DNA of 64,000 nucleotides from positions 7,747,727-7,811,726 of the forward strand of contig JAJEKV010000049.1 of NCBI GenBank assembly GCA_021234155.1, written 5' to 3'. This stretch comes from Isoetes taiwanensis. Its lineage: Eukaryota > Streptophyta > Lycopodiopsida > Isoetales > Isoetaceae. The translations under genes were made by a program, and so were the position numbers. The notes beneath the pieces are model-generated. The model was not told the DNA's origin, did no database searches, and saw nothing but the letters and a program-made list of their open reading frames with translations. Shown in pieces: positions 20,301-59,470 of the stretch; within the stretch, counting starts at the first letter, position 1, and each line of letters opens with the position of its first letter.

Positions 20301-20746
20301 ATTTGAACATGATTGACTTGTTGATTTCCCACCGTGGCATGGACCGTGGGTGTAGAGGTAGCAACAGCCCCAACCAAAACGGTCGGGAGTGGTAATTGTT
20401 CCTTGAGAGCAGGACATAGTTTCAAAATTGTTGCCAAACTTAAGGGAATTTTGATTTTTGTCAGCTCCTCTTGGAGTTCCAGAGGTACATGAGAAAAAGG
20501 ATCTGCTGGATCCACGGGTGCTGGAGTGTGTGGTAATGAAGCAGCAACTTCTTTGAGTAAGTCGACCTCTGCAGCAATATTCGGATATGTCTGAGAGCGT
20601 GGAGGTTGAGATGTGGAAGGTGCATCTTGTCTTTGCTGAGCTCTGGTGGTGGCATGAACATTAGCCAACGTGCGGCCTTCAGCAGCTTGCATGAGGTTCA
20701 AAATGCTTTGGCGTACTTTAGGCATATGAGGCATGAGTTTTTCCAA
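17348..20746 (-). CDS. Element W pol region (protease, reverse transcriptase, RNase H), broken
   Basis: Fossil pol region on the minus strand. The protease part (about 20,100-20,330) has the motif QIEGGSAVNLIT. The reverse transcriptase (about 18,750-19,280) has VCVDYRKLNQAT, MDGLSGYNQI and the catalytic-site region FQDDF. RNase H follows (about 18,120-18,560) with HVHVDVSAFAIGAVL and SATEREALGLIF. The stretch down to 17,348 resembles only the linker that normally precedes integrase. No HHCC or DDE integrase core can be seen. The order and motifs are those of Ty3/gypsy elements, nearest in style to the Tat/Athila side. Confidence 0.75.
18073..18110 (+). repeat. (TTTGAC)n microsatellite
   Basis: About six uninterrupted hexamer copies, with two more at about 17,970-17,985, within element W. 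On the minus strand they read as a Lys/Ser repeat. Confidence 0.85.
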
Positions 20747-20854
20747 GCCAGGTGCAAAGTGAACCTTTTTGTCCTATTCATGAGGGACTGTGTCAACTGC
20801 AAAGGCAGGTTGCGTGCCATGAGGAATAATGGTTAAGGGACGTGACGCCCTGAT

Positions 20855-22651
20855 CTAGCGTGAAACCAAACCAACCCAATTTGACGGCTGGACTGGAGGA
20901 TTAAGAGCCTGAAAAATTTCTTCCTGTGCTTGTTGATCCATCTGAGGTTGATTGGCAGGAGCTGGTTGATAGCGTGATTGCTGAGGCACGCGAGGTGGCT
21001 TCCGAAGAACGGGACGCGGGCCTTGTTTGCCATTGGCAATCCAAAGTTGGTAAGCCGTGAGGCGGACCGAGGTGGTCTGATTGGTGCCAGGAAGCTGCAC
21101 CTGAACTTGTGGAAGTTGAGGACATGCCATGGTGGTATGACCCCATTCGTGACAGTGATAACACTGAGCTTTAGAAGGATCAAAAGGGGGGCATGTGTTG
21201 GGTCCCCGTTGTTGCTCCTGTTGCTGATAGAGTTGATTGGGTTGAGCCGGCAGTGGTTGCGGCTGATATTGCGAGTGTTGCTGAGGTGTTGTTTGCACTT
21301 GATAAACCAGCTTGTTGCGGAAAGGTGTAAGATGAGTGCGAGTGCACTCTTCCGTGGCATGATTGCACATGTTGCATCTTTTACAATGAGGCGGGCCATT
21401 GGTGGAGTTGCACTCATTTGCCAAGTGGCCTTGATGTTTGCAGATATGGCACCAGATCTGACTGCGCTGCGGATTGGCGTATTGAGGTTGGACAGCCGTC
21501 TGTGGAACCATGACTGGTGGGATGAAAGGAAGCTCCTGAAGAGCCACGCCACGGGAGGAAACATTGACGGAGTGATTGACAAGGTCGATAGCCTGCTCCA
21601 AAGTCTTCGGGCGCAGGTATTCAGTCATGAGTCGGATAGCTGGAGGAAGTCCTTGAAGAAACCAGACCAAGATCTTGCTCTGTGTCGGGTACTCTTTGAG
21701 TTTGCTGAGCAGGATGTGAAGTCGATCTGCAAAATCCCTGGCGGACTCCGTGGGCTCTTGTTGAAGGTCATTGAGTTGCTTGAGATGAAGTTGATCATCA
21801 TCCGTGGTTCCATAGTGAGAAAGAAAAGCCGTTTTCATTTCTGACCAATCTTGTTTCCAGTGGCTTTTGTTGGACATAAGCCATTGATGAGGAGAGCCAC
21901 GCAGTGTGGTGGAAAAGATATGGAATTTCAGTTGAGGTTGTGCATGACCATTTAGGACAGCCAGAGCCTCAAATTCTTCCATGTGGGCCTGAGCACTTTG
22001 GTCCAATGGTTTGCCTTTCGTGTTGCCAAAGGTTGGATAAGTCAGCTTAAGGGTCTGAAAGGTAGAGGTGAAAGTGCTTGGCTGGACAGGAACCGGATAG
22101 GGATTATATTGAGGTGGAGTTGGAGGTGGCATGGTGCCTGAAAGACCCTGATGAAGGGGTGACTGAGGAGGAGGTACTTGAGGTGCTTGATCATTGGTTT
22201 TGAGGTCGGTAAGGTTGTAAACAGGGAGAGCGGTGGGAAATGTAGGGAAGGGAAATTCCTGGGGAGGAGCAAAAGAGACATGTGGATATCCCTGTCCGCC
22301 CGGAGGAGATGATGGTTGTGAAGGCAGAGGCGTATGGCCAGAGGAATGATGGATGTAGGCATGTTCGGGGGTATGAAAGTAAGGTTGAGAAGGTTGAGCC
22401 TGATAGGGCTCCTGATAGTGATGAGGTGACTGAGGCTGTGAGCAATGTTTGCACGCTTGAGGCGGGGAACTGGGACGAGACATGACACGAGGGGTGGGTG
22501 GCGCCGACTGAGCCCTAGACCGAATGTGGCCTCCCTCAATGTCATAAGCAGATCCATACATGTCGCGAACAACTTCCCGTCGATGATGGCGCTCCAAGCG
22601 AGACGCCGTCTGGGAAAGAAGTTCTTCTGGCGTGAAGTTTCGGGCAGACAT
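20855..22651 (-). CDS. Element W gag
   Basis: A 598-codon frame beginning MSARNFTPEELL. Residues of about 225-385 form a retrotransposon gag capsid-like region (HMEEFEALAVLNG, DFADRLHILLSKLKEYP, WFLQGLPPAIRL). Two zinc knuckles follow, CHICKHQGHLANEC and CYHCHEWGHTTMAC, with a third Cys-rich block between them. The N-terminal 200 residues are Pro/Gln-rich. It lies directly inside the 5' LTR. It looks whole. Confidence 0.85.
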   Translation of the reverse strand: MSARNFTPEELLSQTASRLERHHRREVVRDMYGSAYDIEGGHIRSRAQSAPPTPRVMSRPSSPPQACKHCSQPQSPHHYQEPYQAQPSQPYFHTPEHAYIHHSSGHTPLPSQPSSPPGGQGYPHVSFAPPQEFPFPTFPTALPVYNLTDLKTNDQAPQVPPPQSPLHQGLSGTMPPPTPPQYNPYPVPVQPSTFTSTFQTLKLTYPTFGNTKGKPLDQSAQAHMEEFEALAVLNGHAQPQLKFHIFSTTLRGSPHQWLMSNKSHWKQDWSEMKTAFLSHYGTTDDDQLHLKQLNDLQQEPTESARDFADRLHILLSKLKEYPTQSKILVWFLQGLPPAIRLMTEYLRPKTLEQAIDLVNHSVNVSSRGVALQELPFIPPVMVPQTAVQPQYANPQRSQIWCHICKHQGHLANECNSTNGPPHCKRCNMCNHATEECTRTHLTPFRNKLVYQVQTTPQQHSQYQPQPLPAQPNQLYQQQEQQRGPNTCPPFDPSKAQCYHCHEWGHTTMACPQLPQVQVQLPGTNQTTSVRLTAYQLWIANGKQGPRPVLRKPPRVPQQSRYQPAPANQPQMDQQAQEEIFQALNPPVQPSNWVGLVSR

Positions 22652-22698
22652 GGCGACAGAAGAAAGGAAAATCGAATCAGACCCGGCAGCGGCGACAG

Positions 22699-23111
22699 TG
22701 TTTGGGGTCTGGGTTCGGGAACTCCTGCAAGACAGCCCTCTGTGAGGACCCGTGGATCTAACAGGAGAATCCGGGGACTATGTCACGCGGGATTTGCAAG
22801 AAAACAAAGGAAAGGGAAAAGAAAACAAAAGAACAATGAGACAACAATGATAAGCTTCCTTGATATCAATGATGATGATACATGAGCTCTCGCAACCGAG
22901 AGAAAACTGAAGTGAGACAAGACTCAAAACTCATCTAAGAAACTCATGTGCTAGCTCTACTCATATATATAGTACAATGGCCTTTGGCCCAATATAGACA
23001 CTCTGACTGATTTTGGTGCCGACTCCTGGAAGGAGGCCTGATTTGCAGGAATGCTGGCGGTGCCTCTTGAAAAGCCTGAAATCACGCTGACGCTGACGCG
23101 GGCGGTGACGG
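22699..23111 (-). repeat. Element W, 5' LTR (first part; the rest is at 54,433-54,611)
   Basis: The LTR begins at 22,699 with TGTTTGGGG and is split by element Z, whose target duplication gacgg is at 23,107-23,111 and 54,428-54,432. A primer-binding-site-like stretch resembling those of other plant Ty3/gypsy elements (tgtcgccgctgccggg on the minus strand) lies just inside it. Confidence 0.9.
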
Positions 23112-29822: not shown

Positions 29823-31170
29823 TTGGAGGTCCTACCGAGATCTTTTACGGAAATTGAACTCAAATGGGGCCAAAGAAGCATCTTTGAGCCCTTTGAACCA
29901 CCTGAGGAGACAAATCAACCAGAATTAGTAGGAGTAAGCATGAGAGTGGTTACCAGATCTATAACCAATGCCACAAACACTCCCAATGTGCCTATTCCTC
30001 CACAAGCTCCTCTCTATCAGTCTACCAATGTTACAAATATTTCTACCTTGCCCTCGTCTTCACAAGTTCAAAATCTTTTTGAGCCAACTCCTCCACCAGC
30101 CCCTTATCATTTTGAGCTAATCTGCACTGTTTCTCCTCCTTATTATGATTCTTCCATGAATGCCAACCATTTTTTGAAGAATTTTGAAGAATACTATGAG
30201 GAGCATGGGAGAAAAAAAAGGCTCAGATTTTCTCGAGTTCACCAAGTGCATGAAGGGTGATGAGGCCGTGTCTTGGTTGGATTTTGAGCTCTCCATTGGT
30301 ACTAAGGGGATGAATTGGAACAAAAGTTTCTATCAAGGTTTGGTAAGACTACTTAGCCTCGGGATCTTGTTTTTGAACTCAATTCTTTCTCTATTAGACC
30401 TGGTGAAAGTGTGAAGCAAAGATGTGGAAAGATTTAACTCTTATTTGCTAGTTTGTAACAGAACCAAGTCTCTCACCCAACTTTGCATTTGGTTGCTTCT
30501 TTTATCAAAGGTTTGATGCCCGGACCGTGGATTTATAGGAAATTGCTAAAACTTCGGAGATTTGGTGAACTAGATTCTATTCATAAAGCATTTGTAAAGG
30601 CTGTGGATTTAGTAGAATTGCTAAGCTATTTGCCCGATGAAGAAATCCGAGACCCATTCTATCCTTCTCATCATGATTCGAGCATGAGCTACACTATACT
30701 AATCTTTGTTCCCAGATATGCAGTTCAGAAAGAAAAGAAAAAGCCAAAAGATGAGGAATTAAACCCTCAGGTTTCAGAGATGAAATCTGAGATAAGTAAA
30801 GTATCTGAAGCTCTTTTAGAGGTGACTAAACAACTCATGGAGTTGAAAAATGGAAATGGTACTTCTTTCTTCTAGCTCGCCTCACTGATTGTACAAACCG
30901 TGGTAAGCCTTTTCATAGGGCTGAGAATTGTTATGCTAGGCCTTGTCCTAAATGCAACAGAAAGGCCATTTTGGTAGAGAATGTCCTGTCTGTTCCTTTT
31001 GTAAAGAGGTAGGTCATGATGACAGGTTCTGCAGTGTCAAGAATTACTTTGCAAGACAAGAAAAGGATAAACAGGTGTCAAATGTTAGTTTTATTGAGAC
31101 TTGTGCAGGGGGACAAGAGGAGCAAGATGTTATGGTTGTGCGCACACGTGCGTGCCTTATTCAGTAACCC
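29823..31170 (+). CDS. Element Y gag region, broken
   Basis: Fossil gag. It has an N-terminal Pro-rich part, a capsid-like stretch (NHFLKNFEEYYEEHG, SIHKAFVKAVDLVELLSYLP) and a Cys/His zinc-knuckle region ending near CSFCKEVGHDDRFC. The same arrangement is present in element Z at 50,878-51,960. Confidence 0.75.
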
Positions 31171-31449
31171 CCGCAGGTTCTATTCCACCAACTACACCCC
31201 ATAAGGTAACATTTCAACCAGATCCCCCAGTATAGCCCCTCCTCCTGTCCAAAGGTATAAATGAAGGATTCCGAACTTGATGAATTTGAATTGCTCATGA
31301 AAAACTCCAAAGTTATGTAGACTTATTAACTCTCACGAGAATTGCACCATCTTATAGGGAAAAGCTTATCAAGAGCACTCAAAATGTTGAAGAAACTGTT
31401 GCAGAGACTTGTCACAATATTTCTGAAGCCCTACCTGAGCAAACTGAAG

Positions 31450-34400
31450 ATCCAGGTGCTTTTACTTGTAATGCCACCATAGGTACTTTCCATCTGGATA
31501 AGGTTTTGCTAGATGGAGGTTCCTCTCTAAATGTCATGCCTTACCATGTCATGAAAGCATTGGATCTCAAGGTAGAAGACAATACTTCTATTGTTCTAAA
31601 ATCTTTTTCCAATGCTAAGGTAGTGCCAAAGGGAATTGTGAGGAATGTGTCCATTATCACAGAGGTATTATTGTGCTAGCTACATTTGTGGTTGTTGATT
31701 TTGAGAATGTTCATCATTCTAACATTTATGATTTATTATTGGGAAGAAGATGGATGAAAACAAGAGATGCTAGGCCGATATGGTCGAAGGCATCTCAGAC
31801 TATTTCAAATGGAGCAACCTCCATTAAATTGGTAAACAAGACTGATCCCTCTGCTAATATTAGGTTCATAGATGTGGATATTTTGCAGGAAGAGGAGCCA
31901 GGAATTTATAGTTTAGGTCTGGATGTTGGTATAAAAGAAGAAGTGGTCAACTTTGCTCATCTTTGAATCTTCTCGACTGAAGGAAATAGGGCCTACCTTT
32001 GGTTTGATGGAGGTATGTCCAAAAATTAGGAATTGCTTCTTCTGGCTGCTATTCTAAAGGATACAAATTTAAAACTAATGACCAAAATAGGGAGAATTCA
32101 TCCTAATATTTCCTCTAATGCAGCAGAGAATATAGAGCCCTCATTGCAGGCCTACAGAAGCAAAAATTCATGAATATTTCCTATATTATTATTTATGGAG
32201 ACTCACAGCTGGTTTGCAGACAGATTTTGGGAGAATACCAAACAAAGCATCATGAGATGGAGGATTTGAACACTCAAGCTCGAGATTTGTTAACTTTTTT
32301 TGATCATTGGGAGATTCATCATATTCCAAGATCTAAAAACTTTGAGGCTGATTTATTGTGCAGGGAAACATTATTGGAGCACTTATCTGAAGGAGCTATC
32401 CAAGAAGACTTCTTAGATGAAGACGAGCTTTCTCAACTTCATCCTATCTTAACTATAAACTTAGCCCAAGAAGAATCATACAAGGAGCTTAAAGTGAATA
32501 AAGAAGGTGTGCCTAGGACTTTGCAAATGGGAGACCTATATGAAGAGGATGACAGAGGTAAAATGGTTGAGTTGTTTGAGGATTGGGTGGATGTTTTTGC
32601 TTGGGAATATTCAGAACTAAAGGGGATTGATAAAAATATTTGTGAGTTTGAAATAAAAGTTCGAGAAGATGCTAAACCTGTTATGCAGAAATTGAGGAGA
32701 ATTAATTCTTCACTCTTGGATCTTATCAAACAAGAGTTGTCTAAAATGCAGGAGTCAGGTCTGATAATGCCTATTGTGAATCCTTCCTGGGTTTCATGCA
32801 TTGTCCCAGTTTTAAAAAAAAATGGTTCTTTGAGGATTTGTGTAGATTATAGAGATCTTAATAAGGCTACCATTAAAGATTGTTATCCCTTGCCTTTTTT
32901 AGAAGAAATCCTTTATGCAGTAGCTGGTAAATCCATGTACTCATTTTTGGATGGTTTCTCTGGGTTCAATCAGATAAGCATTAAACAAGAAGATCAGCCC
33001 AAGACATCTTTTATCACCCCATGGGGAACTTTTGCAATGAAAAGGATGCCTTTTGGTTTAATGAATGCCCCTGCTACATTTCAAAGGGCCATGGACACTG
33101 TCTTTGCAAGCATGACTCCGTAAGCAGTTTAGAGTCTTCCGGATGATTTATGCCTAGGTAATCTGAAGGAAATGACCATGTTTGAGCTAACAAGAATATT
33201 TATATTGTGCGCATAAGCTGGAGTTAATCTAAATCCAAAGAAGTGCATCTTTTATCATCTAGAGGCCAACCTGTTAGGCCATGAAGTTTCTGCTGTGGTC
33301 TTCAAGTAGCCGAGGAAAAAATCATTGCCTTAAAGAAGCTTCAGACCCCCAAGACACTTAGAGATGTTAAAGAATTTATGGGGATGACTTCTTTTTTTGA
33401 GAATTTATGTGCCTAATTTCTCTCACCATGTTAGTCCTATTTCCAAATTAACGAGTGGGCCATGTTAGTAAAAAAGAAAGTAAATACAAAGCTATTGTTT
33501 GGGTGATGAATGTGAGAAGGCTTTTGTGCATTATAGAAGCTATTTGCCATGCCACTTTCGATTGAAAACCCCGGATCTCTCAACGCCATTCACAATTTAC
33601 ATTATTTGTTACTAAAAGAGCTGTTGGGATTGCTATTTTGCAGGAAAAGCACCCCATTGCTTTTGCAAGTAAACAATGGTCTCCAACCGAGGAGAGGTAT
33701 CCTAAGATAGAGAGGAGTGCTGCTTGCTCTCTTTTTTTTTAATAGAAAGGCAAGGACATCTTCTACAAAAATCCCAAGCTACCGTTTATATGCAGTGAGA
33801 ATCCCATGCCTTTTTGTATGGTAAGAAATTGGAAAAACCCAAGCTTCATAGGTGGGCTTGTAGGCTCCAGTCTTATGATCTAAAGGTTAAGGTCATCCAT
33901 GTGGTGAATAATCCGAGTTTGTATTTACCCACGCCTATTTTGAGCATGAAGAAGTTGTGCGGGGAAGAAGGAGAGATGGCTAATCTTGTGGCAAATGAAC
34001 AAGATCTTTCGGATAAACAAAGCTCAAGGTTGGCAGCAATCTATTAGAAAATTCCTCAAATATCAAGAGATACCTCCTGAATTTTCTAAAAGTCAAGCTT
34101 ACAAGTTTAGGCTGAAATGTTTAACTTACACTTTGATTGGAGATATTTTGTGCAAGGTAAACAGGGGATGGTGTTCTTTTTAAGGTGTGTTGATGAAGAG
34201 GAGGCTGCCTTAGTGCTTGCCGAGAATCATAAAGGTGTTTGTGGTGGTCATTTTGCAGCAGATACAACCAAAAAAAAATATTAAGGTCCGGTTATTTCGG
34301 CCTCATTTATTTAGAGATTGCTATGATGTCATTAAAACTTGCCATCAATGCCGATCTTTGGTAAGAAAATTTTGCATCCCCTCTTCTTTGGGATTGTGTC

Positions 34401-39452: not shown

Positions 39453-40737
39453 TCAAACATTTTAACTTAAACTTGTAAGCTTGCCTTTTTGAAAATTCAG
39501 AGGGTATCTCCTGATACTGAAGGAACCTCCTAATAGGTTGTTGCCAACCTTGAGCTGGTATAGTTGACAAGTCCTGCTCATTTACAACAAGGTTAGTAAT
39601 TTCTTCTTCTTGTATCAACTCCTCATGTTCAAAGCAGGCAGCAGGCAAGTATAAACTCGGGTTGTTCAATACATGAATAACCTTTACCTTTAAATCATAA
39701 GATTGAAGCCTACAAGCCCACCTATGAAGCTTAGGTTTTTCTAATTTCTTACCATACAAAAAGGGCATGGGGTTCTCACTTGCATGTAGATAGTGGCTTG
39801 GGATTTTTGTAAAAGATGACCCGTCTCTCTATCAAAAAAGATGAGAGCAAAAAGACTCCTTTCTATCTTAGCATACTTCTCTTCAGTTTGAGACCATTGT
39901 TTGCTTTGCAAAAGCAATAGGGTGTCTATTCTCGCAAAATGGCAACTCCAGCAGCCTTTTTAGTGATAGTTATGTAAACTTTAAATGGTAATGAAAGGTC
40001 CGGAGTTTTTAAAAGTGTAGAATCATAAATAGCCTCTATGATCTGCAAAAAGCTTTTTTCACACTCATCACCCAAACAACAGACCTATATTTGCTTTCTC
40101 TTTTACTAACTTGACCTACTCTAGTCAACTTAGAGATAGGACTAATAAGGTGAGAGAAATTAGGCACATACACTCTTAAGAAAGAGGTCATTCCCATAAA
40201 TCCCTTGACTTCTTTAATTGTCCCGGGTGTTTGAAGCTTTTTTAAAGCTATGATCTTCTCTTCAGCCTACTTGAAGGCCTTTAGCGTAAAACCTCATGGC
40301 CTAAGAGCTGGCCTTTGGATGCCAAAAAGATGCACTTCTTTGGGTTTAGATTAACTCCAGTTTTGTCGCACAATGTAAATATCCTTGTTAGCTCGAAATA
40401 TGATCACTTGTATCAAGTACCTAAGCATAAATCATCAAGATAAACTCTGAATTGCTCGGGGAGTCATGTTTGCAAAGACGAGATCCATAGCTCTCGAAAT
40501 GTAGCGGGGGCATTCATTAAGCCAAAAGGCATCCTTTTCATTGCATAAGTTCCCCATGGAGTAATGAAGGATGTCTTTGGCTGATCTTCCTTTTTGATGC
40601 TAATCTGATTAAAACCAGAGAAACCATCCAAAAATGAGTACATAGACTTGCCAGCCACTGCATAAAGTATTTCTTCCAAAAAAGGCAAAGGGTAACAATC
40701 TTTAACAGTAGCTTTATTTAGATCTCTATAATCCACA
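39453..40737 (-). CDS. Element Z RNase H and 3' half of the reverse transcriptase, broken
   Basis: Fossil coding remnant between the insertions Y and M. Minus-strand stretches include DYRDLNKATVKDCYPLPF, LDGFSGFNQISIK and the linker KLHRWACRLQSYDLKVKVIH. The remainder of the reverse transcriptase lies on the other side of M. Confidence 0.8.
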
Positions 40738-40761
40738 ACAAAGTTGCGTATTAAACGGGAG
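40738..40761 (+). repeat. Element M, left terminal inverted repeat
   Basis: Reads acaaagttgcg then tattaaacgggag. The complement of the right end reads acacgattgca then aattaaacgggag, about 19 of 24 positions alike. A further shared block, aaagattccc, lies about 32 bp inward on this side. Confidence 0.8.
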
Positions 40762-41091
40762 CAAATCATTGAAACGAGAGCAAAAGGAATATTCCTCAAA
40801 GATTCCCTTTTTTTTTTACAAAAAAGGGGGTAAAATGAGGTTAAAAAAAAAAGATGCATGAAATTCTATTTTGACCCCCCCCGAAATGACTAATTTTTTT
40901 TTGCAACGAAGGAATTGACTTTTTTAAAGTGTCACTTTTCTTAGCAAAAAGAATGTTCTTAAAGTATGTTTTAAGAGAGAAACTCTAATTTCAGAGGATA
41001 AAATATTTAACAAAAAATTGAAGTAAGTCTGTAATTGAAACTGTAGTATTCTCAAAAATTCACATCAAAATTTACAGTCTTTTTCTAAGAC

Positions 41092-44000
41092 TCAGTTATG
41101 TGCAAAAGTGTGAGGAGTGATGAGAGAGGGATCCAGGACGTCCTCATGTTCATTTATGCCATCGTCATCACCTTCACTTCTTTCACTGTCACTCGAGGAA
41201 GTGCTTGAGTTATCTTCCTCATCACTATCAACAGACGGTGAAGCATTGTCACCACCTTCTTCATCATCTTCTTCATAATTACAAGCTTTTTTAAGCAAAT
41301 TGATAGTCTTCTGGCGTAGACGATTGTCAGATTTCAATTTAAAATCATAGCACAATATAGTCACGTCATTAAGGTTCAGCTCGTCCCTACAACCCACCTT
41401 CTTGGACTTTCTCCCTTTTCCTTGGCTTCTCATTTCTAACTCATATCTACCTTCAAAAGCATTTTCTGAGCGTGTTGCAAGCCAATGAATCTTGAGTTTA
41501 GTGACTAAGCCTTCCTCCTTGACTGTGTCAAGCACTTTTGCTATCCAGAACGGTCGACCTTTGTCATCCTCCTCGGTCCGGAAGAGCAATTAGCATACCT
41601 TTGGTAATTTTACGTGATATTACCTTGGGGCTCATTCTGCGCCTTGGTCCGAGGTACATGACTCGGTCCTCCTCGTCTTTCTCTGCAGGTGCAAATGTAG
41701 CTTTGCTTGGACCCGCTTTGGTCTTTGGGGTTGATGGAAGGTGTTAGGCCATTGAAATGGTTCTTGCAACTGTCTTAGAGCTATATTTTGTACAACAATT
41801 TTTTCTGTTCGAGAAAGAAATTACTCCACCACATCCGATCTTCTTCTAAGAAGTACTTAAAGCCCGAGGAAATTCCATTTTCAATGGCTTTTAAGGATGA
41901 CTCTGGGGTACTTTTCTTCTGCTTGGACTCCTTAGGATTTTTGAGAGGAAGTTGCTCAGCACGTTCTATGAAGGAAGTGTCTGGAATATATTTAAGGAAG
42001 CGTAATCCCTCTGGCGGACTCCAGTCCTTAGTTGTGGTATACTTCTTCCCCTGTAAGAAGCTTTGGCCATCCTTCAAGTAGAACTTGATATGATGTTGAA
42101 AGGTGAGATCATTCAACTTGTTCACAGCTTGTTCTCTGTTTGAACGTTGAGAGAAAACAAACTCTCTAAAATCAGCAGTCTCTTTAAGAAGATCGACCAC
42201 TGGAGTAGGAGTGTAAGAATCTTCAATAATTCGAACTAAAGAAGGAAGACAGAAAGCCTTCTTCCTTCTAAAGGCGCATTTAAAATCTCTTGAACATTTG
42301 GTCAATCTGATCATGAGTGTGGCCTACAAGTAAGAAACCGAGCTTCACTTTTCTAAAGATCCCTAGCTCCACTAACATGGCACAGTACGCAAAGAGTGTT
42401 TGATTCTTGTTCTCCCTTGTAGTATTGTCAAGTTGCAGATAAAGCACTGGTGGTAATTGCTCTTGCTCGCACAGGACCTTGTTAAGAATTGTAATTGTGA
42501 GGTTCGGGTCACCATGCAAGTTTGGATACGTCAAAAATACTTTGCACCTTAGACTTCCTTTGAAGACCATAGCTCCTACAAGGTGGACCTTAACAAAACA
42601 TTCCTCTGGCACATCTTTAGGAATGTTCAAGAAATGTGGTAGAGTTGTTTTTTTTGGTCCATTCCATCAATCACAAACAGACATGTATTGGTGGACGTTC
42701 AAGAGCTTTTTTCTATGCTTGGCAAGCTTTCTTCTCTCACGCTTGTTGTTCACGATGTCCGGCAAGGTTCTCGTTGCACAATATCTCGTAGAAGAAATCA
42801 GGTCAAAGCATTTTTCTCAAAACAAGTGAGAGATTGGAGAACATGAACTTACTCCTTTCGACCTCTGTCTTTGCGGTTTCTCGTTGACTCTTTAATTTCG
42901 CACACCTCGAGCAAACGGACATTCTATGTTTTCTAGGAATTTTCACAAGACCGAATTCACTTTTCCACACCCGGTGAAGTGTGAGTAAGAGATGTCAAGC
43001 CGAGTGCAAGTCTCTTTGTACTCATTAAAACATCTTTTTGGTGATGTTATCGGTTAAATGATACATGTTCTTTGTTAGGTAGCTTCTCACATGTTTCTCT
43101 AAAATATTTCTCCATCCATGACACAAAGAAGAAGGGCATGCATGGTTACAACTCTTCTTGGTCCACAATGATCATCGATTCTTTGGATTTTTGTCCAGTC
43201 TTTTGTGTATTCTAGACATTCTTGTGGACCCTAAACGGTGGACAACCATAAAACATTTCTCGCAAACTTCTTGACGGTTAATGTAGTGCAAGAAGGTGTT
43301 GCGGTCTGGTCTTACATGATAAGCTAAGTAGGCATTCTGATCCGCCAATGTCATGGAACTCAGTAGTTGTCTCTAACTCGCCGTAATTTAGCCATGTTAA
43401 ATCTGTTGATGCAACCCAATGAGCAGCATTTAGTTCTCAAAAGTCTCCTCATTTTCTGTTCATCCATAAGATTTCTTCTTCTTACAGAGGAGCAAGCCCT
43501 CAAACCAAAATCCACCTTGAATTTCTTTGAAGATTGGCTGGAGAACATGTAATCTCTTTGTTCCTCGTTGGTGTCTTCATCTTCTGATGAAACTTCTACT
43601 CTGGGGGTGACTTCCTCTGTCCTGAGTGGTGTGCTTGTAGAGGAAAACAGACCATGTGAAGTTGTTCCCGGAATAGGCAGGGGTACAGTGTTAAAGGGTG
43701 GTGATGGCCCATAAGAGGTTGTGGCATCAGCTGTTCTTGTACCATCTTGAAAAGGAGTTCTTGCAAACATCTCCTTTAGAGCGGACTGGAATTCTGCAAA
43801 TCCATGTGTCACAACCGTTGTTGTGTGAAGAGGAGTGCATGCTGGAGCTTCGTCTTCATTTGTAGTGAAGTCCTGGTGAGAGAAATTGTAGTGAATCTCA
43901 CAGTCTTCTGTGTTTTCTGTGTTCCTTGTATGTTTGCACGAAGGAGGCGAAACTACAAAAGGCGGGGGTAGCTTGTTCTTGAGCACCCTTTGTTGTGGAG

Positions 44001-44308
44001 CTTCTGTAGGTCCCGGGGATGGAACAAAGGGTGGTGGCAACCTGCTCCGAACTGGTGGTGATTCTTTGGAAGGAGATGCCAGTGTGCTGTCTACAGGACT
44101 TGGTGACGGTTGGAAGGGTGGTGGAAGTCTGTTACGTGCTGGACTCGGTGACTTTTTAAGAAGCAAGAACGATGAAGTAGAGGTCTATAGGAGTCGGAGA
44201 AAACCGGTCTTCAGAAGAAACGACGTTGGTCCCGAGTGTGTCCTCAGAACTAGACGAGCTTGAGACAACGAAAGGTGGTGGAAGTTTGTTGACGAAGCGG
44301 TTTGTCAT
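41092..44308 (-). CDS. Gene A: DUF7869-type protein, candidate transposase of element M
   Basis: Start ATG at 44,308 (MTNRFVNKLPPPF), stop at 41,092; about 1,070 codons. The N-terminal part is Pro/Ser-rich with four repeats of the pattern KLPPPFxxS. A Cys-rich block follows (TKCCSLGCINRF), then YLAYHVRPDRNTF, a CSRCAKLK motif and VIDGMDQKK. Next comes the core VFLTYPNLHG...LPPVLYLQLDNTTRENKN...GFLLVGHTHDQIDQMF, which I recognise as the DUF7869 signature. The C-terminus has GRPFWIAKVL and an acidic Ser/Asp/Glu tail. Asp residues in IDGMDQ, QLDN and HDQID are spaced like an RNase H-fold triad, so a DDE-like transposase is my inference. At least four frame changes (near 41,590, 42,290, 42,650 and 44,160) mean this copy is damaged or the assembly has indels. 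No introns are evident. Confidence 0.75.
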
Positions 44309-44642
44309 CTTAAGAACTGCAAAACAGTGTAGAGTTTAGATAATGTTTCTCTACTGCAGAGCTTTTCTTATTCCAGAATACAAGCCCGCCTACTACAAGT
44401 AGAAGTTCCTGCAACAATTAAGCGAAAGGCAAACTAAAAGCTATTCCCGAATACACTAGAGCAGAACAATAAGGCCAAACGTATTCCACTTCACATAGAA
44501 AACGAGCAAGACGGAATGGACACCTTTAAAAGGAAATTTTGGCGCCTTCAGTTGCGTATTCCAGTCTCTGAGCTGAAGTCGCCAGCGCCAGCGCCTTCGA
44601 TTATAATATTCAGAGCTGTATTCCGATACTCATAGAGAAAAC
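44309..44642. promoter_or_regulatory. Divergent promoter between genes A and B, with palindromes and an E2F-like site
   Basis: The 334 bp between the two start codons hold two full and several partial copies of the element's palindrome (tattccagaata at 44,369; attcccgaatac at 44,443; halves near 44,480, 44,559 and 44,618). TTTTGGCGCC at 44,537-44,546 fits the E2F consensus, and a TATA-like ttataatatt lies at about 44,600, roughly 40 bp before the gene B start. Co-regulation of the two genes, perhaps in S phase, is an inference. Confidence 0.5.
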
Positions 44643-47600
44643 ATGGAGAGGTGAGTAAGAAAGTACAAGGTACAATCATTTGTGTGTCTGTTTCTTTTCG
44701 CCTTCGAGGGAAGGCGAAAGTGTATTCCGGAATACACTTACGCCTTCGAGGAAAGGGGTAAGTGTATTCCGGAATACACTTACGCCTTCGAGGAAAGGCG
44801 AAAGTGTATTCCGGAATACACTTTCGCCTTCCCTCAAAGGCGAAAGTGTATTCCGGAATACACTTTCGTGTTCTTATGTTTTGTAAGGTTATTTTTCCGT
44901 GATTTTTGTAGTAACTTTAGGTGTTTTTTCTGCTTCTAAAACTTGTTTAGACCTGTTTTTTTGTCAAGATTGCAGTGTTGTTTTGGCATTTTTGTCCTCT
45001 TTTTGCCCTTGTTTTTTCCTTTTCGCAAGACATTTTGTATTCTGGAATAGTTTTTTGCCACTGCTTTCTCTAACAAGATCGTGTTTACACACAATTTGCA
45101 CAGACAAGAAGGCAGCAAGAAACAACACAAGAGGACCGTTAAAATTCCAACGAAACCGCACCCACAGAGAAGGGTTGAGGAGACATCTGCGCCTGCTATT
45201 TACGAAAACTTTCAAACTCAATGGTTTTTTACAAGGGGTACTTCTGGAAAATACAGCACACTTACTTTCCTACATGTCTGTCGGAGTGCTGGAGCAAAAA
45301 GGTACGATGAGAGGGAATTTGTCTGCATGGGCACCATCCAGGCCGTGAGTGAAGTAGCTGGGGAGGTCGGCCAGCGAGGGAGACTGTCGTTTCAGACATC
45401 CCAAGGCTTTATTCATGTTGATGAATCCTATTTTAGAGTGGTGAAAGTAAATCCTCATCCTCTATATAAGTATGTTTCTCACTACCTCAGCAAGAGGTCG
45501 CTCTGTGCCATCATCAACTACGTTCGTTAACAAGAATTAAGACTTCCCCTACAGCGAGTCATCACAAGGGGAAGAGGATGACCAACCGAGCCCGAGCAGT
45601 GCATCATCACAATCTGGGAGTCCATCACAGTCCGGCGAAAGGCCACCGTCACCACCACCAAAGAAGCGGCCAAGGGAAACAGTTGCTGCTAAAGAGCCTA
45701 AAAAAAAGCAGACGGCTTTAATTGCAGCAGAGGATATTTCCGAGGAACCTAAGAAGAAGAAGGGGAAGGGTAAAGCACCTGGTGTTGCTATTAAGGAAAA
45801 AAAAGTTGACAAAACAGCTGAAAAGATGGAAGAGATTAACCTGCACAAGTTTGTGCAAGGTGTCATTTATTTGCCAGTCACTTCAATGAAGCTTCCACCG
45901 AAAAATGAAGCTGGTGAAAGGCCACTTCAGGTTCGCAAAATTTATGCCGATCACTTAAGGAACCTGAAAGACAGAATAAGGAGCAATCCAAATGCTCATG
46001 TGGCCCCAATAGTTGTCCTTGTTGACAGGGAAGAGTGCAAAACCCCCGGGACTATGATGAGAAAAACGCAGAGACCTACACTCACTACGCCTTGGGAGGC
46101 AATCACGACTTTAAGGCAAGAAGGCAACTTTATAAAGAGAAGAAGAACCCGAGGTACCTCTCTCAGTCCTCGCTTGTTTGTCTCATCGTGGTCTTCTTCG
46201 ATGAAGAAGCGAAAATCGTTGCCAACACCCACAATGCTGACAACGAATATAAACTAAAGATGAGCTTCGTCGACAAGATCCGGTTCATGCACAGGGAGTA
46301 CGTAATTTTCAAGGAAAAGTACGGTGAGGACCTGAAGAAGCCAGCATTTTCCTTGGAGCTTAAGGAGGCGTGTGCCATTGAATCTTTGCGAAATATGACG
46401 AGGCCAACAAAAGGCAGTCTCTCATTGGCCACGACAACTGGTTCCAGTTAGCTTTTAGAGATGGCAAGGTAAGCACAAAATGTATTCCAGAATAGCAAAT
46501 CAACTATTTAACGTGAATCTTCTTGAACAGATTTGGGAACTTCAGGACCAGATATTTACAATGTTCGAGCGAGGGGAGTTAAAGAGCAAGGGAAAGGAGA
46601 CAGCTAAGAAAAAAACCTCAGACGTACCCAAAAAAGAAATGACCATTACCGTCTGGCGGGAAATGCAGGGCTTCTCCGACACGGAGCTTCTCGAGCAGCT
46701 TCTCCAAAAAGTTGTTGATAAGGAGTTTAGCCTAGAAGAAATGTCAAAGGAATTGCACAAGTAAGTTCTCTGACACAAACATTAGTTATTGCATGTTAGA
46801 TTCCCAAAAACATCGGCGTAGCTAGTGTATTCCAGAATACACATGCCTTCCTTTACACGGGTAATGTGTATTAGGAATACACATTGCTTGTCTCTAGAAA
46901 GGCATTGTGTATTCGAATACACATTACTGTGTGAAGGAAGGCATGTGTATTCGAATACACATTGCTCCTCCTCGAATGTTGGCACGTGGTATTCGGAATA
47001 CGCATGCGTTCCTTTAGAGAAGCAATCTGTATTCCGGAATACACATTGCTTTTCTAGAGACAAGCAATGTGTTTGTCCTGTAGCAGAACTATTTTCTGCA
47101 TATTGTTTCGAGGTAGCATCACAAGTTAACCGGTTTGTATTCCAGAATACAAATAGCTTGACTTGTATTTGTTTTTCTTTTACGTTGCCTTCATTCTTTC
47201 GTTTAAACTCATTGTTTCCTTAACGTCTTGCAGCCAAAAGAACGTCATAACATGTCAAACATGTTTGATGGAGCAGCTAAACGTCGACACATGGGAAAGG
47301 TGCAAGGAACTCTACCCAATTGCCACATCCGACGAGCGCATTGTGCAATATTCACCAAATTTTGAGGGCTGGGTAATTACACTTAGAATTCCTTCTCTCT
47401 GCACAAACGATCTCTTGACAGTTGTTGTTTTGTTTTTCTTTAGAGCAAAAAGAAAAATAAAGACCTACCCGAGGGCTTTATGAATTTGGTTAGAACAGCA
47501 CGGGAAGAGAGGTCGTTAGCTGAAAGAAGAACTGTTGAGCCAGAACCATCCGACTACGAGAGATTCTGCATGTTTGATCAAAACAATTTATATTCAATCA

Positions 47601-48688
47601 TTCATGGTGATTGCACGAACCTTGTCGGAACGGTTAAGCCACAGGACTTTACTTTGGTTATTGCTGATCTTCCCTATGGGTTTAAGCTTAAAGACAGCAG
47701 ATACGACGACCAGCCCTTCAAATTTTCAGAGTTTAATGCTTTCATTGAAGGAATCAAGCAGATCTCAACGGCCAAACATTGGCGTTTAGTTACCTTCCAT
47801 TCGAGCATGCAGTCTGGCTTGGTGGAATCAGCTTTCAAAAATCACTTTGGTTCTCCAGTTCAGGCAGGATATGAAAACCTTGTCTGGTAAGTCTTATTCC
47901 AGAATACAATTACTTTTCTCTTTAATTACGTAGTGTGTATTCCGGAATAGTATTTCCTGTTTCTGGTTTTCGAAGTGTTTTCTTGTTTTTGCTAACATCA
48001 CTTTAAATGCTTCACTAGGTACAAAACGAACATCAACTACCATGGTGGAGGACCAAGGTTGCTCAGCAAGGTAGAGTACCTTCATGTAGCTTATTGGAGT
48101 TTTGATGGGAAGAGGACCATGGATCACTTTAACACTGCCGCCTGTCAAAACTTTTCAAACGTCCTAGAGTTTCCAGCAGTCTTACAGAAATTGCAGGACC
48201 CAAGTGCACAAGGCAGGATTGTGAATCACTACCAGAAACCACAAAAGCTCATCAACCATCTCCTGGACATGTTCTCGCGTCCAGGAGATTGGGTGCTTGA
48301 TGCTTTCTCTGGTTCTGGTACTACTATCGCATGTGCACTTAAGAAGGGCCGCAACTGTGTAGCCGTGGATATTGATAAGGAGGCTGTGCATTTTGTGAAG
48401 ATGAGACTGGCTGCCTTACCTACTTTACCAGATGAAAATCAAGAGTTAGGGGCCAAGTCTTCATCTGATTATGCTAAACTAACGTCCTCAGAGATACAGC
48501 CTCCATTCTCCAGCTCACTAGACGATGAGGCAACCTTTGCAGAGCTTAAAGAAGTAGCTTTAGCTACCATTCCAGAGGACAAGGAGGATAAAAAACTCAA
48601 GTCTCCAGCAAAGGAGCAGATAGAACAGAAGGACGAGATGGCAGAGAGCAGCAAAAAGAATGAAGAGGACTATGATGTAGATCTTTGA
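44643..48688 (+). CDS. Gene B: ParB-like domain plus beta-class DNA methyltransferase
   Basis: Exons by GT-AG signals: 44,643-44,650, 45,104-46,468, 46,531-46,760, 47,234-47,372, 47,444-47,886 and 48,019-48,688; about 950 codons. Exon 2 has an unknown N-terminal domain, a Ser/Pro/Lys-rich basic linker and a ParB/sulfiredoxin-like domain (PLQVRKIYADHLRNL, PIVVLVDRE, YALGGNHDFKARRQLY). Exons 5-6 hold the methyltransferase: LYSIIHGDCTNL, motif IV ADLPYGF, and later KPQKLINHLLDMFSRPGDW with motif I VLDAFSGSGTTIACALKKG. Motif IV before motif I means the beta class, like CcrM, which methylates adenine N6 or cytosine N4. DLPY instead of DPPY leaves the target base open. The C-terminus is a charged tail. 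The methyltransferase exons are intact. Exon 2 shows frame changes near 45,530, 46,035 and 46,395. Likely nuclear. Confidence 0.8.
44700..44870. repeat. Four-unit palindromic array in intron 1 of gene B, period 42 bp
   Basis: GTGTATTCCGGAATACAC occurs at 44,720, 44,762, 44,804 and 44,846, exactly 42 bp apart. The units are separated by a spacer that is itself nearly self-complementary (cgccttcgaggaaaggcg). As 42 is a multiple of three, two frames stay open across the array and give spurious repeat proteins. A lone fifth copy (tgtattctggaatag) lies at 45,036 in the same intron. Confidence 0.9.
46469..46530 (+). other. Short intron of gene B holding one palindrome
   Basis: A 62-bp intron (gtaagc...gaacag) whose main content is one copy of the palindrome, tgtattccagaatag, at 46,481. 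Confidence 0.6.
46822..47152. repeat. Seven-copy palindromic array in the third intron of gene B
   Basis: Copies of [t/c]gtattcNggaatacac with variation lie near 46,825, 46,866, 46,905, 46,945, 46,988 and 47,028, about 39-43 bp apart, with a seventh at 47,135. Several extend to gcaatgtgtatt...aatacacattgc. The spacers resemble each other in alternating orientation (ttgtctctagaaaggca; gcttttctagagacaagc). Some copies have lost the central base pairs while the flanks stay complementary. Confidence 0.85.
47887..48018 (+). other. Intron of gene B between the two methyltransferase exons, two palindromes
   Basis: Begins gtaagtc and ends cttcactag. Holds tattccagaatac at 47,894 and tgtattccggaatag at 47,936. 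Splicing joins TG to GTAC, restoring Trp-Tyr and keeping the methyltransferase frame. Confidence 0.75.
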
Positions 48689-49014
48689 CTACTGCATATA
48701 AAAAGTATCATTATTTATTACAATGAATCTTCAATATTGATGTACAACAATTTATTAAAAACATAATACTTTTTTTTCCTTTCTATTCTGGTGCTTTTTT
48801 TTGTAATGCTTTCAGTCTCTTCAAGTCTATGCCTAAATTTCGCTATTTTTATGATTTCTATTTCATAAGTACAAAGTTTTCGTCTAATGATGGGCCAAAA
48901 TGGCATGAAAAAAATTGCGAACCTCCATAAATTCTCAACAACTATCAAAAAAGGCTTATTTTAGAAACATGGTATTTTTTTAAAGGGAATCTTTGAAACG
49001 GGAGTGATGCAACA

Positions 49015-49038
49015 CTCCCGTTTAATTTGCAATCGTGT
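49015..49038 (-). repeat. Element M, right terminal inverted repeat
   Basis: Plus strand reads ctcccgtttaat then ttgcaatcgtgt, followed by the tccaca target duplication. Just inside, gaaacgggagt and actcccgttt form a further small inverted pair. Confidence 0.8.
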
Positions 49039-49044
49039 TCCACA

Positions 49045-50400
49045 CATATTCTTAGAGAACCATTCTTTTTTAGAACTGGCACAATACAAGAAACCCAAGA
49101 AGGGTTCACAATGTCAACTATCAAACCTGACTCCTGCATTTTGAATAATATAAGATCTAAAAGTGAGGAATTAATTCTTCTCAATCTCTGCATGACAGGT
49201 TTAGTATCTTCACGAACTTTTATCTCAAACTCACAAATGCTCCTATCGACCCCTTTCAATTCTGAATATTCCCATGCAAAAACATCCACCCAATCTTCAA
49301 AGTACTTAATCATTTTACCTTTGCAATCTTCATCATATAGATCTCCCATTTGCAAAGTCCTGGACATACCTCCTTTGTGCACTTCAAGTTCTTTGTGTGA
49401 TTCCTCTTGTGCTAGGTTGATGGTCAAGATAGGATGAAACTGAGAGAGTTCATCTTCATCTAGGACATCTTCCTTGATAGCTCCCTCAGAGAGATGCTCT
49501 AAGAGTGTTTTCCTGCACAAAGAATCAGCCTCAAAGTTTTTGGACCTTGGAATATGATAAATTTCCCAATGATAAAAAAAAGTTAGCAATTCTCGAGCTT
49601 GTGTGTTCAGATCCTCCATATCTTGATGTTTTGTTTGGTATTCTCCCAAAATCTGTTTGCAAACAAGTTGTGAGTCTCCATAGATAACAATATGGGAAAT
49701 ATTCATGAACCTTGCTTCCTGTAGGCCTGCAATGAGGGCCCTATATTCTGCTGCATTAGAAGAAATATTAGGATGAATTCTCCCTATTTTAGTCATCGAC
49801 TTAAGATGCAGCATCCTTCCGAATAGCAGCAGAAGAAGCAATCCCTAATTTTTAGACATACCTCCATCAAACCAAAGGTAGGCCTTGTTTTCTTTTGGAT
49901 CAGGGAACTCTACATGAGCAAAGTTGATAACTTCTTTATTTATATCAACATCTAGACCTAAACTGTAAACTCCTAACTCTTCTTCCTGCAAAATATCCAC
50001 ATCTATGAATCTAATGTTAGCGTAAGGGTCGGGTTTGGTTTACCGGTTTAATGGAAGTTGCTCCATTTGAAATAGTGCAAATACCTTCGGACCATATAGG
50101 CCTAGCATCTCTTGTTTTCATCCACCTTCTTCCCAATAATAAATCATAGATGTTAGCATGGTTAACATTCTCAAAATCAACAACCACAAATGTAGCTAAG
50201 ACAATGATTCCCCCCAGATAATGCAGACACATTTCTCACCACTCCCTTTGGTACTACCTTAGCATTGGAAAAGGATTTTTAGAACAATAGAAGTGTTGTC
50301 TTCTACTTTGAGATTCAGTGTTTTTTCATAACATGATAAGGCATGACATTTAGGGAGGAACCTCCATCCAACAAAACCTTATCTAAATGGGAGGTACCTA
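49045..50400 (-). CDS. Element Z protease, extra RNase H and 5' part of the reverse transcriptase, broken
   Basis: Fossil pol remnant to the right of M. On the minus strand the protease-side stretch includes VVVDFENVNHANIYDLLLGRR. The extra RNase H follows (NAAEYRALIAGLQ, VIYGDSQLVCKQIL, HIPRSKNFEADSL), then the start of the reverse transcriptase (QESGLIVDIVNPSWVSCIVP, KKNGSLRIC), which stops where M begins. Confidence 0.8.
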
Positions 50401-58050: not shown

Positions 58051-59470
58051 TCAGTTGTTGGAACTCCCAATCGTTCCAGATGGATCTGCTTCATATAGAA
58101 TAGGCTTTCCACATTCAGAACGCAGATAAACTTCCCTGTAAGCTTCCAATAAAGATAAATGATCACGGAAGTATTCTTCTTTCTGCAATTCAGCTTCTGT
58201 ATGCGGCGCATTGAGATACTTAACCAAATACCACCTCCATTGTCCCTTCCTTTTATGCTGAACAATCATTTCTGGAACAAACACAGATTCAACCTCCTCC
58301 AATTCTGGTTCTGCTTCAACAAGTAATAATTGTGGATTAATTCCTTTGAACGGTCTCAAGTACTCAATGTTGAATGCATTATGTATCTTCCATTGTGGCG
58401 GAAGTTCAAGTCTGTATGCATTACTATTAATCTTCTCAATTATCCGAAATGTACCATAATTCCTTGTCAGCAACTTATGCTTCTTCCTATCAGGCTGAGC
58501 TCTTCGCTCCTTAATAACACGCACAAAAACCCAGTCATCTACTTCATATTGTACTTCCCATCTTCTCTGATTTGAAGCAGCAACATACTTTTCTTGAGCC
58601 GCTTCTATTGAAGAACGAACTTTCTCTAACACCTGTTCCATGTCCTGCGCCACTTTGTCCGCTTCCATCACACCTTCAGCCACTTTGATCATTGGTATTG
58701 GTGGCAGCCGACCTTGAACAATTTGGAAAGGCGCTAACTTCGTTGCTGAATGTGTTGCCATATTGTACACGAACTGTACCATAGGTAGATAATTCTCCCA
58801 TTCCCCTACGTGCTCATGGACATAACTCCGCAACATAGACAGTAATGTTCTATGAGTTACCTCAGTCTGCCCATCTGTTTGAGGGTGAAAAGCAGTGGAG
58901 AACTGCAACTTTGTTCCAAGACTTGTGAACAATGCACGCCAGAACTTACTACAAAACTTTGAATCCCGATATGATATTATCACCTCGGGAAGTCCATGAT
59001 TTTTTAACACTTCCTTAAGGAAAAGTATTGCAGTTGCAGATGCTTTCAGGGACTTCTTACAAGGAATGAATATGGCATACTTGCTGAATCTGTCCACAAC
59101 AGTCCAGACTTGATCATTGCCTTGGACACTACGTGGCACGGAAACAAAATCCATAGTCACATGCTGGAAGGGTTTTTCAGGCACACACAATGCCATGAGC
59201 AGTCCAGGAGTCTTGGCGTGTGAATCTTTTGTCTTCTGACAGGTTACACATCTTTCCACAAATGTGATCACATCACTTCTGAGTGAATCCCAATAAAAGT
59301 GTTAGTTACCATATCAAGAGTATTAAATATATACCTCTATGCCCTGCCTTGGAACTTCATGACATTCTTTCAACACAATATCACAGAAGTTCTTCGTTAC
59401 GCACAAACAATCGTTGTGGAACAAGTATCCCCTCCGAATGTAGTGATTGTCAACTACTCTGCTTTGACTT
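58051..59470 (-). CDS. Element V integrase with C-terminal chromodomain
   Basis: Fossil region. An open stretch of 406 codons (58,051-59,271) begins in the integrase zinc finger (CVTCQKTK). It continues with the core (VTMDFVSVPRS, VVDRFSKYAIFIP, FHPQTDGQTE), a GPY-type module (LTRNYGTFRIIEKINSNAYR) and a chromodomain near residues 325-380 (VPEMIVQHKRKGQWRWYLVK, EEYFRDHLSLLEAY). The chromodomain identifies a chromovirus and is known to steer integration towards particular chromatin in this group. The finger continues to about 59,470 in decayed form. Confidence 0.85.

Follow-up and report, generated by a model that had tools for sequence, protein, structure and literature searches.

The 64,000-nucleotide stretch of Isoetes taiwanensis DNA analysed here (assembly GCA_021234155.1, contig JAJEKV010000049.1, positions 7,747,727 to 7,811,726; the whole stretch is called the window) contains a DNA transposon with terminal inverted repeats (TIRs), which is recognized by shared ends, flanking target duplications, an empty site and multiple copies. 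It carries two divergent genes, both under purifying selection: gene A with a DUF7869 domain, most likely coding for a transposase, and gene B for a predicted amino-DNA-methyltransferase; in addition, arrays of a conserved 16-bp palindrome are present. The unit would appear to be a cut-and-paste transposon, most likely Sola-like, although not proven to belong to Sola, whose methyltransferase probably acts on the element itself. An earlier note, made from the letters of the window, had pointed to the unit and its gene pair; several of its claims are taken up below. The element and its site of insertion comprise the following features (positions in the window; strand in brackets, where there is one):

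40737..49039: entire transposon of 8303 bp with termini AACA...TGTT; ends from alignment to other copies and from the empty site in element Y
40733..40736: left target duplication CCAC
49040..49043: right target duplication CCAC, from the comparison across 18 copies
40737..40761 (+): left TIR, 80% complementary over 25 nt
49015..49039 (-): right TIR, pairing with the left arm over the same length
32842..32845 (-): empty target site CTAC in the related retroelement Y, from self-comparison of the window

The duplication was compared in 18 copies, namely 17 in which both ends could be placed and the window copy. A perfect 4-bp target duplication was present in 17 of them, compared with 0/18 at each of six control offsets; the sole exception, L017, matched in three of the four bases. 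The duplicated targets are varied (CCAC, TGCA, GAGG, AAAT, ACTC, CTCG and others). The 6-bp duplication assumed earlier is ruled out: the repeat TCCACA is present at the window copy, yet a 6-bp repeat was found in only 2/18 copies, the window included. The ends therefore lie one base further out on each side, at AACA...TGTT, than had been proposed (40738..49038, 8,301 bp), while the position of the unit was right. Its imperfect TIRs had also been described correctly, and were recovered by an inverted-repeat search as the two arms given above.

Element Y, which had been said to keep the same site without the insert, aligns to both flanks of the transposon (30089-32846 to 51805-49039, and 32837-34129 to 40742-39448) and has a single CTAC at the site, compared with CCAC on both sides of the filled one. 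Insertion had occurred within a reverse-transcriptase/RNase H region, as was thought before, since the open reading frame (ORF) at 48945-49844 matched RVT_3 with 1.6e-16. The search for further copies and an empty site, set beforehand as a test of the transposon reading, yielded many copies and one empty site. A chimera of the assembly is ruled out, since separate copies agree on the ends and on the empty site.

The genome searched consisted of 1110 contigs with 1,658,258,908 bases in all. When its DNA was searched with the gene B region, the best 40 of 1950 candidates were scored and at least 116 matching pieces were obtained; among the matches listed, the long pieces were 85–97% identical. 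From this search 24 copies were examined (20, then four; designated by L numbers), as well as one further DUF7869 locus. Both ends could be located in 17 of the 24 copies, namely in 14 from the set of 20 and in three from the set of four; for L017 and L026 one end each was set by eye. Three of the first 20 copies (L025, L027, L028) had a partial gene A or none in the stretch examined. The subfamilies of the transposon are mosaic. In copies L029–L031 the left half, which comprises gene A, promoter and intron 1, showed 82–84% identity to the window; the value was about 70% in a stretch of 220 bp within the N-terminal part of gene B and 91–93% in the remainder of the gene and at the right end. 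L032 has a rearranged left side, and its right part is 92% identical. In gap-free columns, the mean identity of the gene A core was 0.946 within the first subfamily and 0.908 between subfamilies; for the gene B core it was 0.911 in both cases.

Within the transposon, the genes and their motifs are located as follows; the model of gene B was inferred from reading frames.

41092..44308 (-): gene A, likely transposase, DUF7869, frame-broken here (reading frames, profile match, selection)
42036..42606 (-): DUF7869 domain in two pieces, in different frames
42666..42668 (-): candidate acidic residue 1, the D of VIDGMDQ (translation)
42427..42429 (-): candidate acidic residue 2, the D of LQLDN
42301..42324 (-): candidate acidic motif 3, GHTHDQID
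44652..48688 (+): gene B, amino-DNA-methyltransferase with an N-terminal domain, a ParB-like part and several introns, frame-broken here
47666..47680 (+): methyltransferase motif IV, DLPYG, unchanged in 20/21 copies and DLPYV in one
48299..48325 (+): methyltransferase motif I, DAFSGSGTT, exact in 8/21 aligned copies

The presence of two divergent genes of these kinds, as the earlier note had it, was borne out by profile searches. Gene A matched DUF7869 (PF25273) with 6.9e-39; the match in the next ORF (1.3e-4, 22 bits) lies under the 26-bit cut-off. A relative in L033 has an unbroken frame of 987 residues with DUF7869 at 4.4e-51, and no other Pfam match was obtained for this protein at E values up to 1. 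The candidate acidic motifs occur in the order VIDGMDQ, LQLDN, GHTHDQID; LDN and GHTHD were each found in 18 of the 19 codon-aligned copies, with a gap in the remaining copy, and VIDGMDQ was read from the translation of the window and from the L033 protein. When the ten ORFs of the unit were compared with Pfam, none passed the cut-off for a known transposase family. Gene A would most likely code for a transposase of the DDD type. In the whole genome, the best 150 of 9902 first-look candidates for DUF7869 were scored, and all 150 were over the cut-off. Genes with DUF7869 are thus very abundant in this genome, with open frames of 784–987 residues in three of the 150 scored, and the wider group may have been active recently.

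Gene B matched N6_N4_Mtase (PF01555, 1.1e-17), the structure of CcrM (6pbd, 8.1e-11) and phrog_67 (1e-23). Motif IV precedes motif I, which is the order of beta-class methyltransferases, and the assignment to this class made before is confirmed. The DLPY motif and the similarity to CcrM are commonly associated with adenine as target; because of both features, the mark placed by the gene B enzyme is predicted to be N6-methyladenine (6mA), less likely N4-methylcytosine (4mC). Homology to the methyltransferase is shared with beta-class enzymes of phages and bacteria (phrog_67, CcrM); unlike these, gene B is split by introns and possesses an extra N-terminal domain. Of 15 phage records compared, 13 were 23–26% identical over 35–40% of the query and two were 37% identical over a piece of 14%, and none covered 80% of the query. 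Scans of viral contigs with one ORF each of gene A and gene B revealed no relatives. In copy L018 an unbroken frame of 511 residues runs across the end of intron 1 and comprises the N-terminal and the ParB-like part. The N-terminal domain (YENFQTQWF...; window 45102-45527, L033 7284-8024) had no significant match in Pfam; its DNA is about 70% identical between subfamilies, yet it is under purifying selection. In L033 this N-terminal part is present, yet downstream of it (8025-9401) no methyltransferase match was found in the stretch examined, perhaps because another insertion is nested there or because gene B is truncated.

Both genes recur together, as had been asked of other copies. A search with the last exon of gene B, in which the best 150 of 3647 candidates were scored, gave sequences that were 77–100% identical. 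When these 150 were paired with the 150 DUF7869 matches, 22 pairs within 20 kb were obtained, compared with 0.54 expected for random placement; 21 of the 22 were divergent, and 17 were spaced by 5.5–6.1 kb.

Ratios of nonsynonymous to synonymous substitution (dN/dS) were determined for 18 sequences, namely the window and 17 of the first 20 copies, with L025, L027 and L028 excluded because they lack gene A segments. Segments A1, A4, A5 and B4 were omitted as short or broken, and codons touching length changes were masked. The values were 0.49 (0.39–0.60) for gene A, with 0.71 and 0.82 in the wrong frames, and 0.33 (0.28–0.39) for gene B, with 1.12 and 0.97 in the wrong frames; the intervals are codon bootstraps, and the pairs of copies are not independent. 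Against copies of other subfamilies, the window gave 0.12 (L033), 0.28 (L030) and 0.29 (L029) for gene A, and 0.19, 0.19 and 0.20, respectively, for the first part of gene B, compared with wrong-frame values of 1.07–2.63 for both genes; synonymous distances between the window and L033 approach saturation (0.94 and 1.55); this comparison comprised L033, L030 and L029, without L031 and L032. Gene A and gene B are both under purifying selection; therefore, the copies most likely descend from elements in which both proteins were working.

The third component is the palindrome TGTATTCCGGAATACA, whose sites were located by a palindrome scan (without strand):

44309..44651: divergent promoter region with three degenerate sites (44367, 44440, 44617)
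44721..44862: four perfect palindromes with 42-bp spacing, intron 1 of gene B
45036..45051: single site with 3 mismatches, intron 1 of gene B
46481..46496: single site with 3 mismatches, gene B intron
46826..47151: second array, gene B intron (sites 46826, 47028, 47136)
47893..47951: two sites spaced by 43 bp, gene B intron

With up to 4 mismatches allowed, the window element has 14 sites, five of them exact; 20 single-base shuffles contained 0.65 on average and 2 at most, and the remaining 55.7 kb of the window contained 2. In the 14 other full-length copies, 4–19 sites are present per copy. According to the gene model, none of the 14 sites of the window copy falls in an exon; each is situated either in the divergent promoter or in an intron of gene B. 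In 19 sequences, 104 of 152 spacings between neighbours under 130 bp measured 40–43 bp; 42 bp corresponds to four turns of the helix. Among close neighbours (< 60 bp) with dissimilar flanks the proportion was 46/57, and the spacing is therefore not only a result of tandem duplication. Three subfamilies, whose gene A DNA diverges by as much as 23%, share the palindrome; its core recurs between different spacers in L030 and in L033, in which gene A is 77% identical at the DNA level. The exact sequence was found 3392 times in the genome, compared with 0 for the reversed pattern, which is also a palindrome. Both this difference and the shuffle control rule out an origin of the sites by chance. Among the first 50 genome sites listed, 19 clusters were distinguished, and many of the short spacings measured 42 or 84 bp or came close to these values. 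The contigs of this listing contain four of the best-150 gene matches; three had a site within 3 kb (the methyltransferase matches on C3 and C23 and the DUF7869 match on C46), and none was present near the DUF7869 match on C16. The palindrome would appear to be the best candidate for an address of the methyltransferase.

A mechanism can be proposed which connects these components. The DDD-type transposase encoded by gene A would cut at the AACA...TGTT ends and join them to targets staggered by 4 bp. Gene B, which codes for a methyltransferase of the type found in bacteria or phages and is read in the divergent direction, would be a maintained accessory gene. The phased palindromes in promoter and introns would most likely be bound by the protein of gene B, through either its ParB-like or its N-terminal region, or by that of gene A. 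Gene B would place 6mA, or less likely 4mC, on the DNA of the element itself, and this marking could tune expression or mobility of the element or perhaps counter silencing by the host. A role of gene B in marking or protecting the unit, as suggested earlier, would fit its conserved catalytic motif and the selection on it. Taken as a whole, a cut-and-paste transposon with gene A as transposase, gene B as a maintained self-marking methyltransferase and a palindrome read by the protein of either gene appears moderately probable. The narrower proposal of an address-and-mark system, in which a ParB-like methyltransferase binds the phased 16-bp palindromes and writes 6mA or 4mC on the DNA of the element, is tentative and should fall somewhat short of being probable.

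Several observations weigh against the self-marking transposon. The transposase fold of gene A is unconfirmed: a fragment of 128 residues from the window, modelled with AlphaFold, had a predicted local distance difference test (pLDDT) score of 36, and no solved structural relative was found. The claim that gene A mobilizes the unit is supported indirectly, by the defined ends, the 4-bp duplications, the recurrence of the pair, purifying selection and the acidic motifs. Among the 18 close copies the selection on gene A is modest in comparison with its wrong frames, and two of its five segments, A2 and A6, gave similar values in the right and in one wrong frame (0.59/0.60 and 0.47/0.48, respectively). 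Of the 150 best DUF7869 matches, 128 had no partner among the methyltransferase matches listed. As to the designation of gene B as ParB-methyltransferase, the ParB label is weakly supported, with matches to NCBIfam ParB (0.0064) and phrog_723 (ParB-like, 0.043) and none to ParB in Pfam. A residue of motif I is changed in 6 of the 19 listed copies (the last G to R in five, one of which also has the first G changed to R, and the first D to A in one); in the remaining ones the deviation consists of gapped codons. Length changes which are not multiples of three were present in all 15 aligned full-length copies, including the window, where both genes are broken; none of the 15 is therefore demonstrably active.

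The last point, together with the unconfirmed fold, could also mean that a non-autonomous relic is present here, whose movement depends on some transposase unrelated to gene A, with DUF7869 not being a transposase. This is very improbable in view of the purifying selection on gene A, with values down to 0.12 across subfamilies, of the 150 DUF7869 candidates over the cut-off, and of the lack of any ORF in the unit which passes the Pfam cut-off for a known transposase family. Gene B, on the other hand, could be a captured passenger without a role for the element, since mobile elements have captured methyltransferase genes more than once (PMC12477816, PMC5890265), and L033 had no methyltransferase match in the stretch examined. 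Of the two genes, it is gene B on which the constraint is stronger (18 copies), the pair is divergent at similar spacing, and motif IV is retained in 20/21 copies; because of the purifying selection, and with the recurrence of the pair, an idle passenger is considered very unlikely.

Two further explanations accept the same transposon and assign the palindromes differently. They could be sites for host transcription factors or enhancers of the divergent promoter, unread by gene B: their core, TTCnnGAA, resembles a pair of heat-shock-factor half-sites, which weighs against the self-marking reading as well, and all 14 sites of the window copy are situated in the promoter and in introns of gene B. 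Yet a 16-bp palindrome exceeds a two-unit heat-shock site in length, the spacing of 40–43 bp holds also for neighbours with dissimilar flanks, and the 3392 exact copies, like the sites near three of the four gene matches, weigh against it; this explanation is considered rather unlikely. Alternatively, the palindromes could be regulatory or assembly sites for the gene A transposase, with gene B methylating elsewhere, e.g., at the termini. Several transposases bind internal repeats, and the palindromes are clustered between both genes and inside the element; nevertheless, the window copy has no site in its terminal regions or in gene A, and this possibility is regarded as unlikely.

As to classification, 4-bp target duplications are typical of the Sola superfamily as a whole, and such duplications were found here. 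Elements of the piggyBac type use TTAA, also 4 bp, as their only target; the targets of this element vary, and it is therefore not a TTAA element. KDZ transposons produce 8-bp duplications, unlike the 4-bp duplication found here. Iyer 2011 and Petroll 2025 are reportedly the sources for ParB-methyltransferase proteins in green and red algal transposons. Sola2 elements have 4-bp duplications and form chimeras with Fanzor (PMC3627910); the likeness in features to the superfamily consists of the 4-bp duplications, short imperfect TIRs and a common transposase part combined with an interchangeable accessory part, whereas the duplications of Sola2 are AT-rich and those found here are mixed (CCAC, GAGG, ACTC, CTCG and others). 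Sola1-1_Ec32 of Ectocarpus encodes a protein of 1104 residues with ParB and N4/N6 methyltransferase domains opposite to its transposase, and its authors suggest that the protein binds and modifies the sequence of the element itself; similar proteins are cited there from transposons of green and red algae (PMC12477816), whose host lineages differ from the lycophytes. Sola1-1_Ec32 and the present unit are both DNA transposons in which the methyltransferase and the transposase, here the likely transposase gene A, are encoded on opposite strands; the former measures 21.5 kb and belongs to a brown alga, the latter 8.3 kb, in a lycophyte, and the likeness is one of description. In the parts of PMC12477816 covered, no palindrome arrays, selection test or DUF7869 are named. 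Retrotransposons with captured C5 cytosine methyltransferases (PMC5890265) are likewise mobile elements carrying a DNA methyltransferase; the class of enzyme and the class of element are different.

The earlier note was not aware of a plant TIR transposon with this gene pair. This kind of element is already known from algae. No report of a ParB-methyltransferase transposon in a vascular plant was found in the literature searched, mostly non-subscription journals, nor were a DUF7869 link, a palindrome array or a selection test for such elements; DUF7869 was mentioned in none of the papers of this collection. The palindrome arrays are new here. A candidate binding site and a test for selection are added to the role which was proposed for the ParB-methyltransferases of algal transposons. 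Functional methylation of adenine, or of cytosine at N4, in nuclear DNA of land plants is disputed; an element with many copies, a conserved methyltransferase of bacterial type and thousands of palindromes should offer a defined place to look for 6mA or 4mC. If the proposed mechanism is correct, a vascular plant would possess a transposon-encoded, sequence-addressed DNA mark outside the 5-methylcytosine system of the host.

For the assembly of Isoetes taiwanensis, Nanopore reads were used together with the programs miniasm, racon and pilon (PMC8566536). The 15 full-length copies contained 1572 length changes, 1069 of them of one base, beside 6533 substitutions; losses of one base were only partly enriched in runs. 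The frame breaks may be due to decay, to long-read assembly error or to alignment noise, and the frequent length changes of one base are possibly uncorrected long-read errors in repeats.

The transposon lies inside a retroelement and was therefore, by inference, inserted later than the latter. The long terminal repeats (LTRs) of this surrounding retroelement (23112-25559/51979-54427) are 97.7% identical (2382/2437 aligned bases), and those of a second pair (27347-29820/36971-39447) 97.2%; both pairs measure about 2.45 kb. The two LTR retroelements of the window are related and nested, the inner within the outer. More genes of the Ty3 type (gag, reverse transcriptase with RNase H, integrase) are present at 18002-22777 and 58051-59301.

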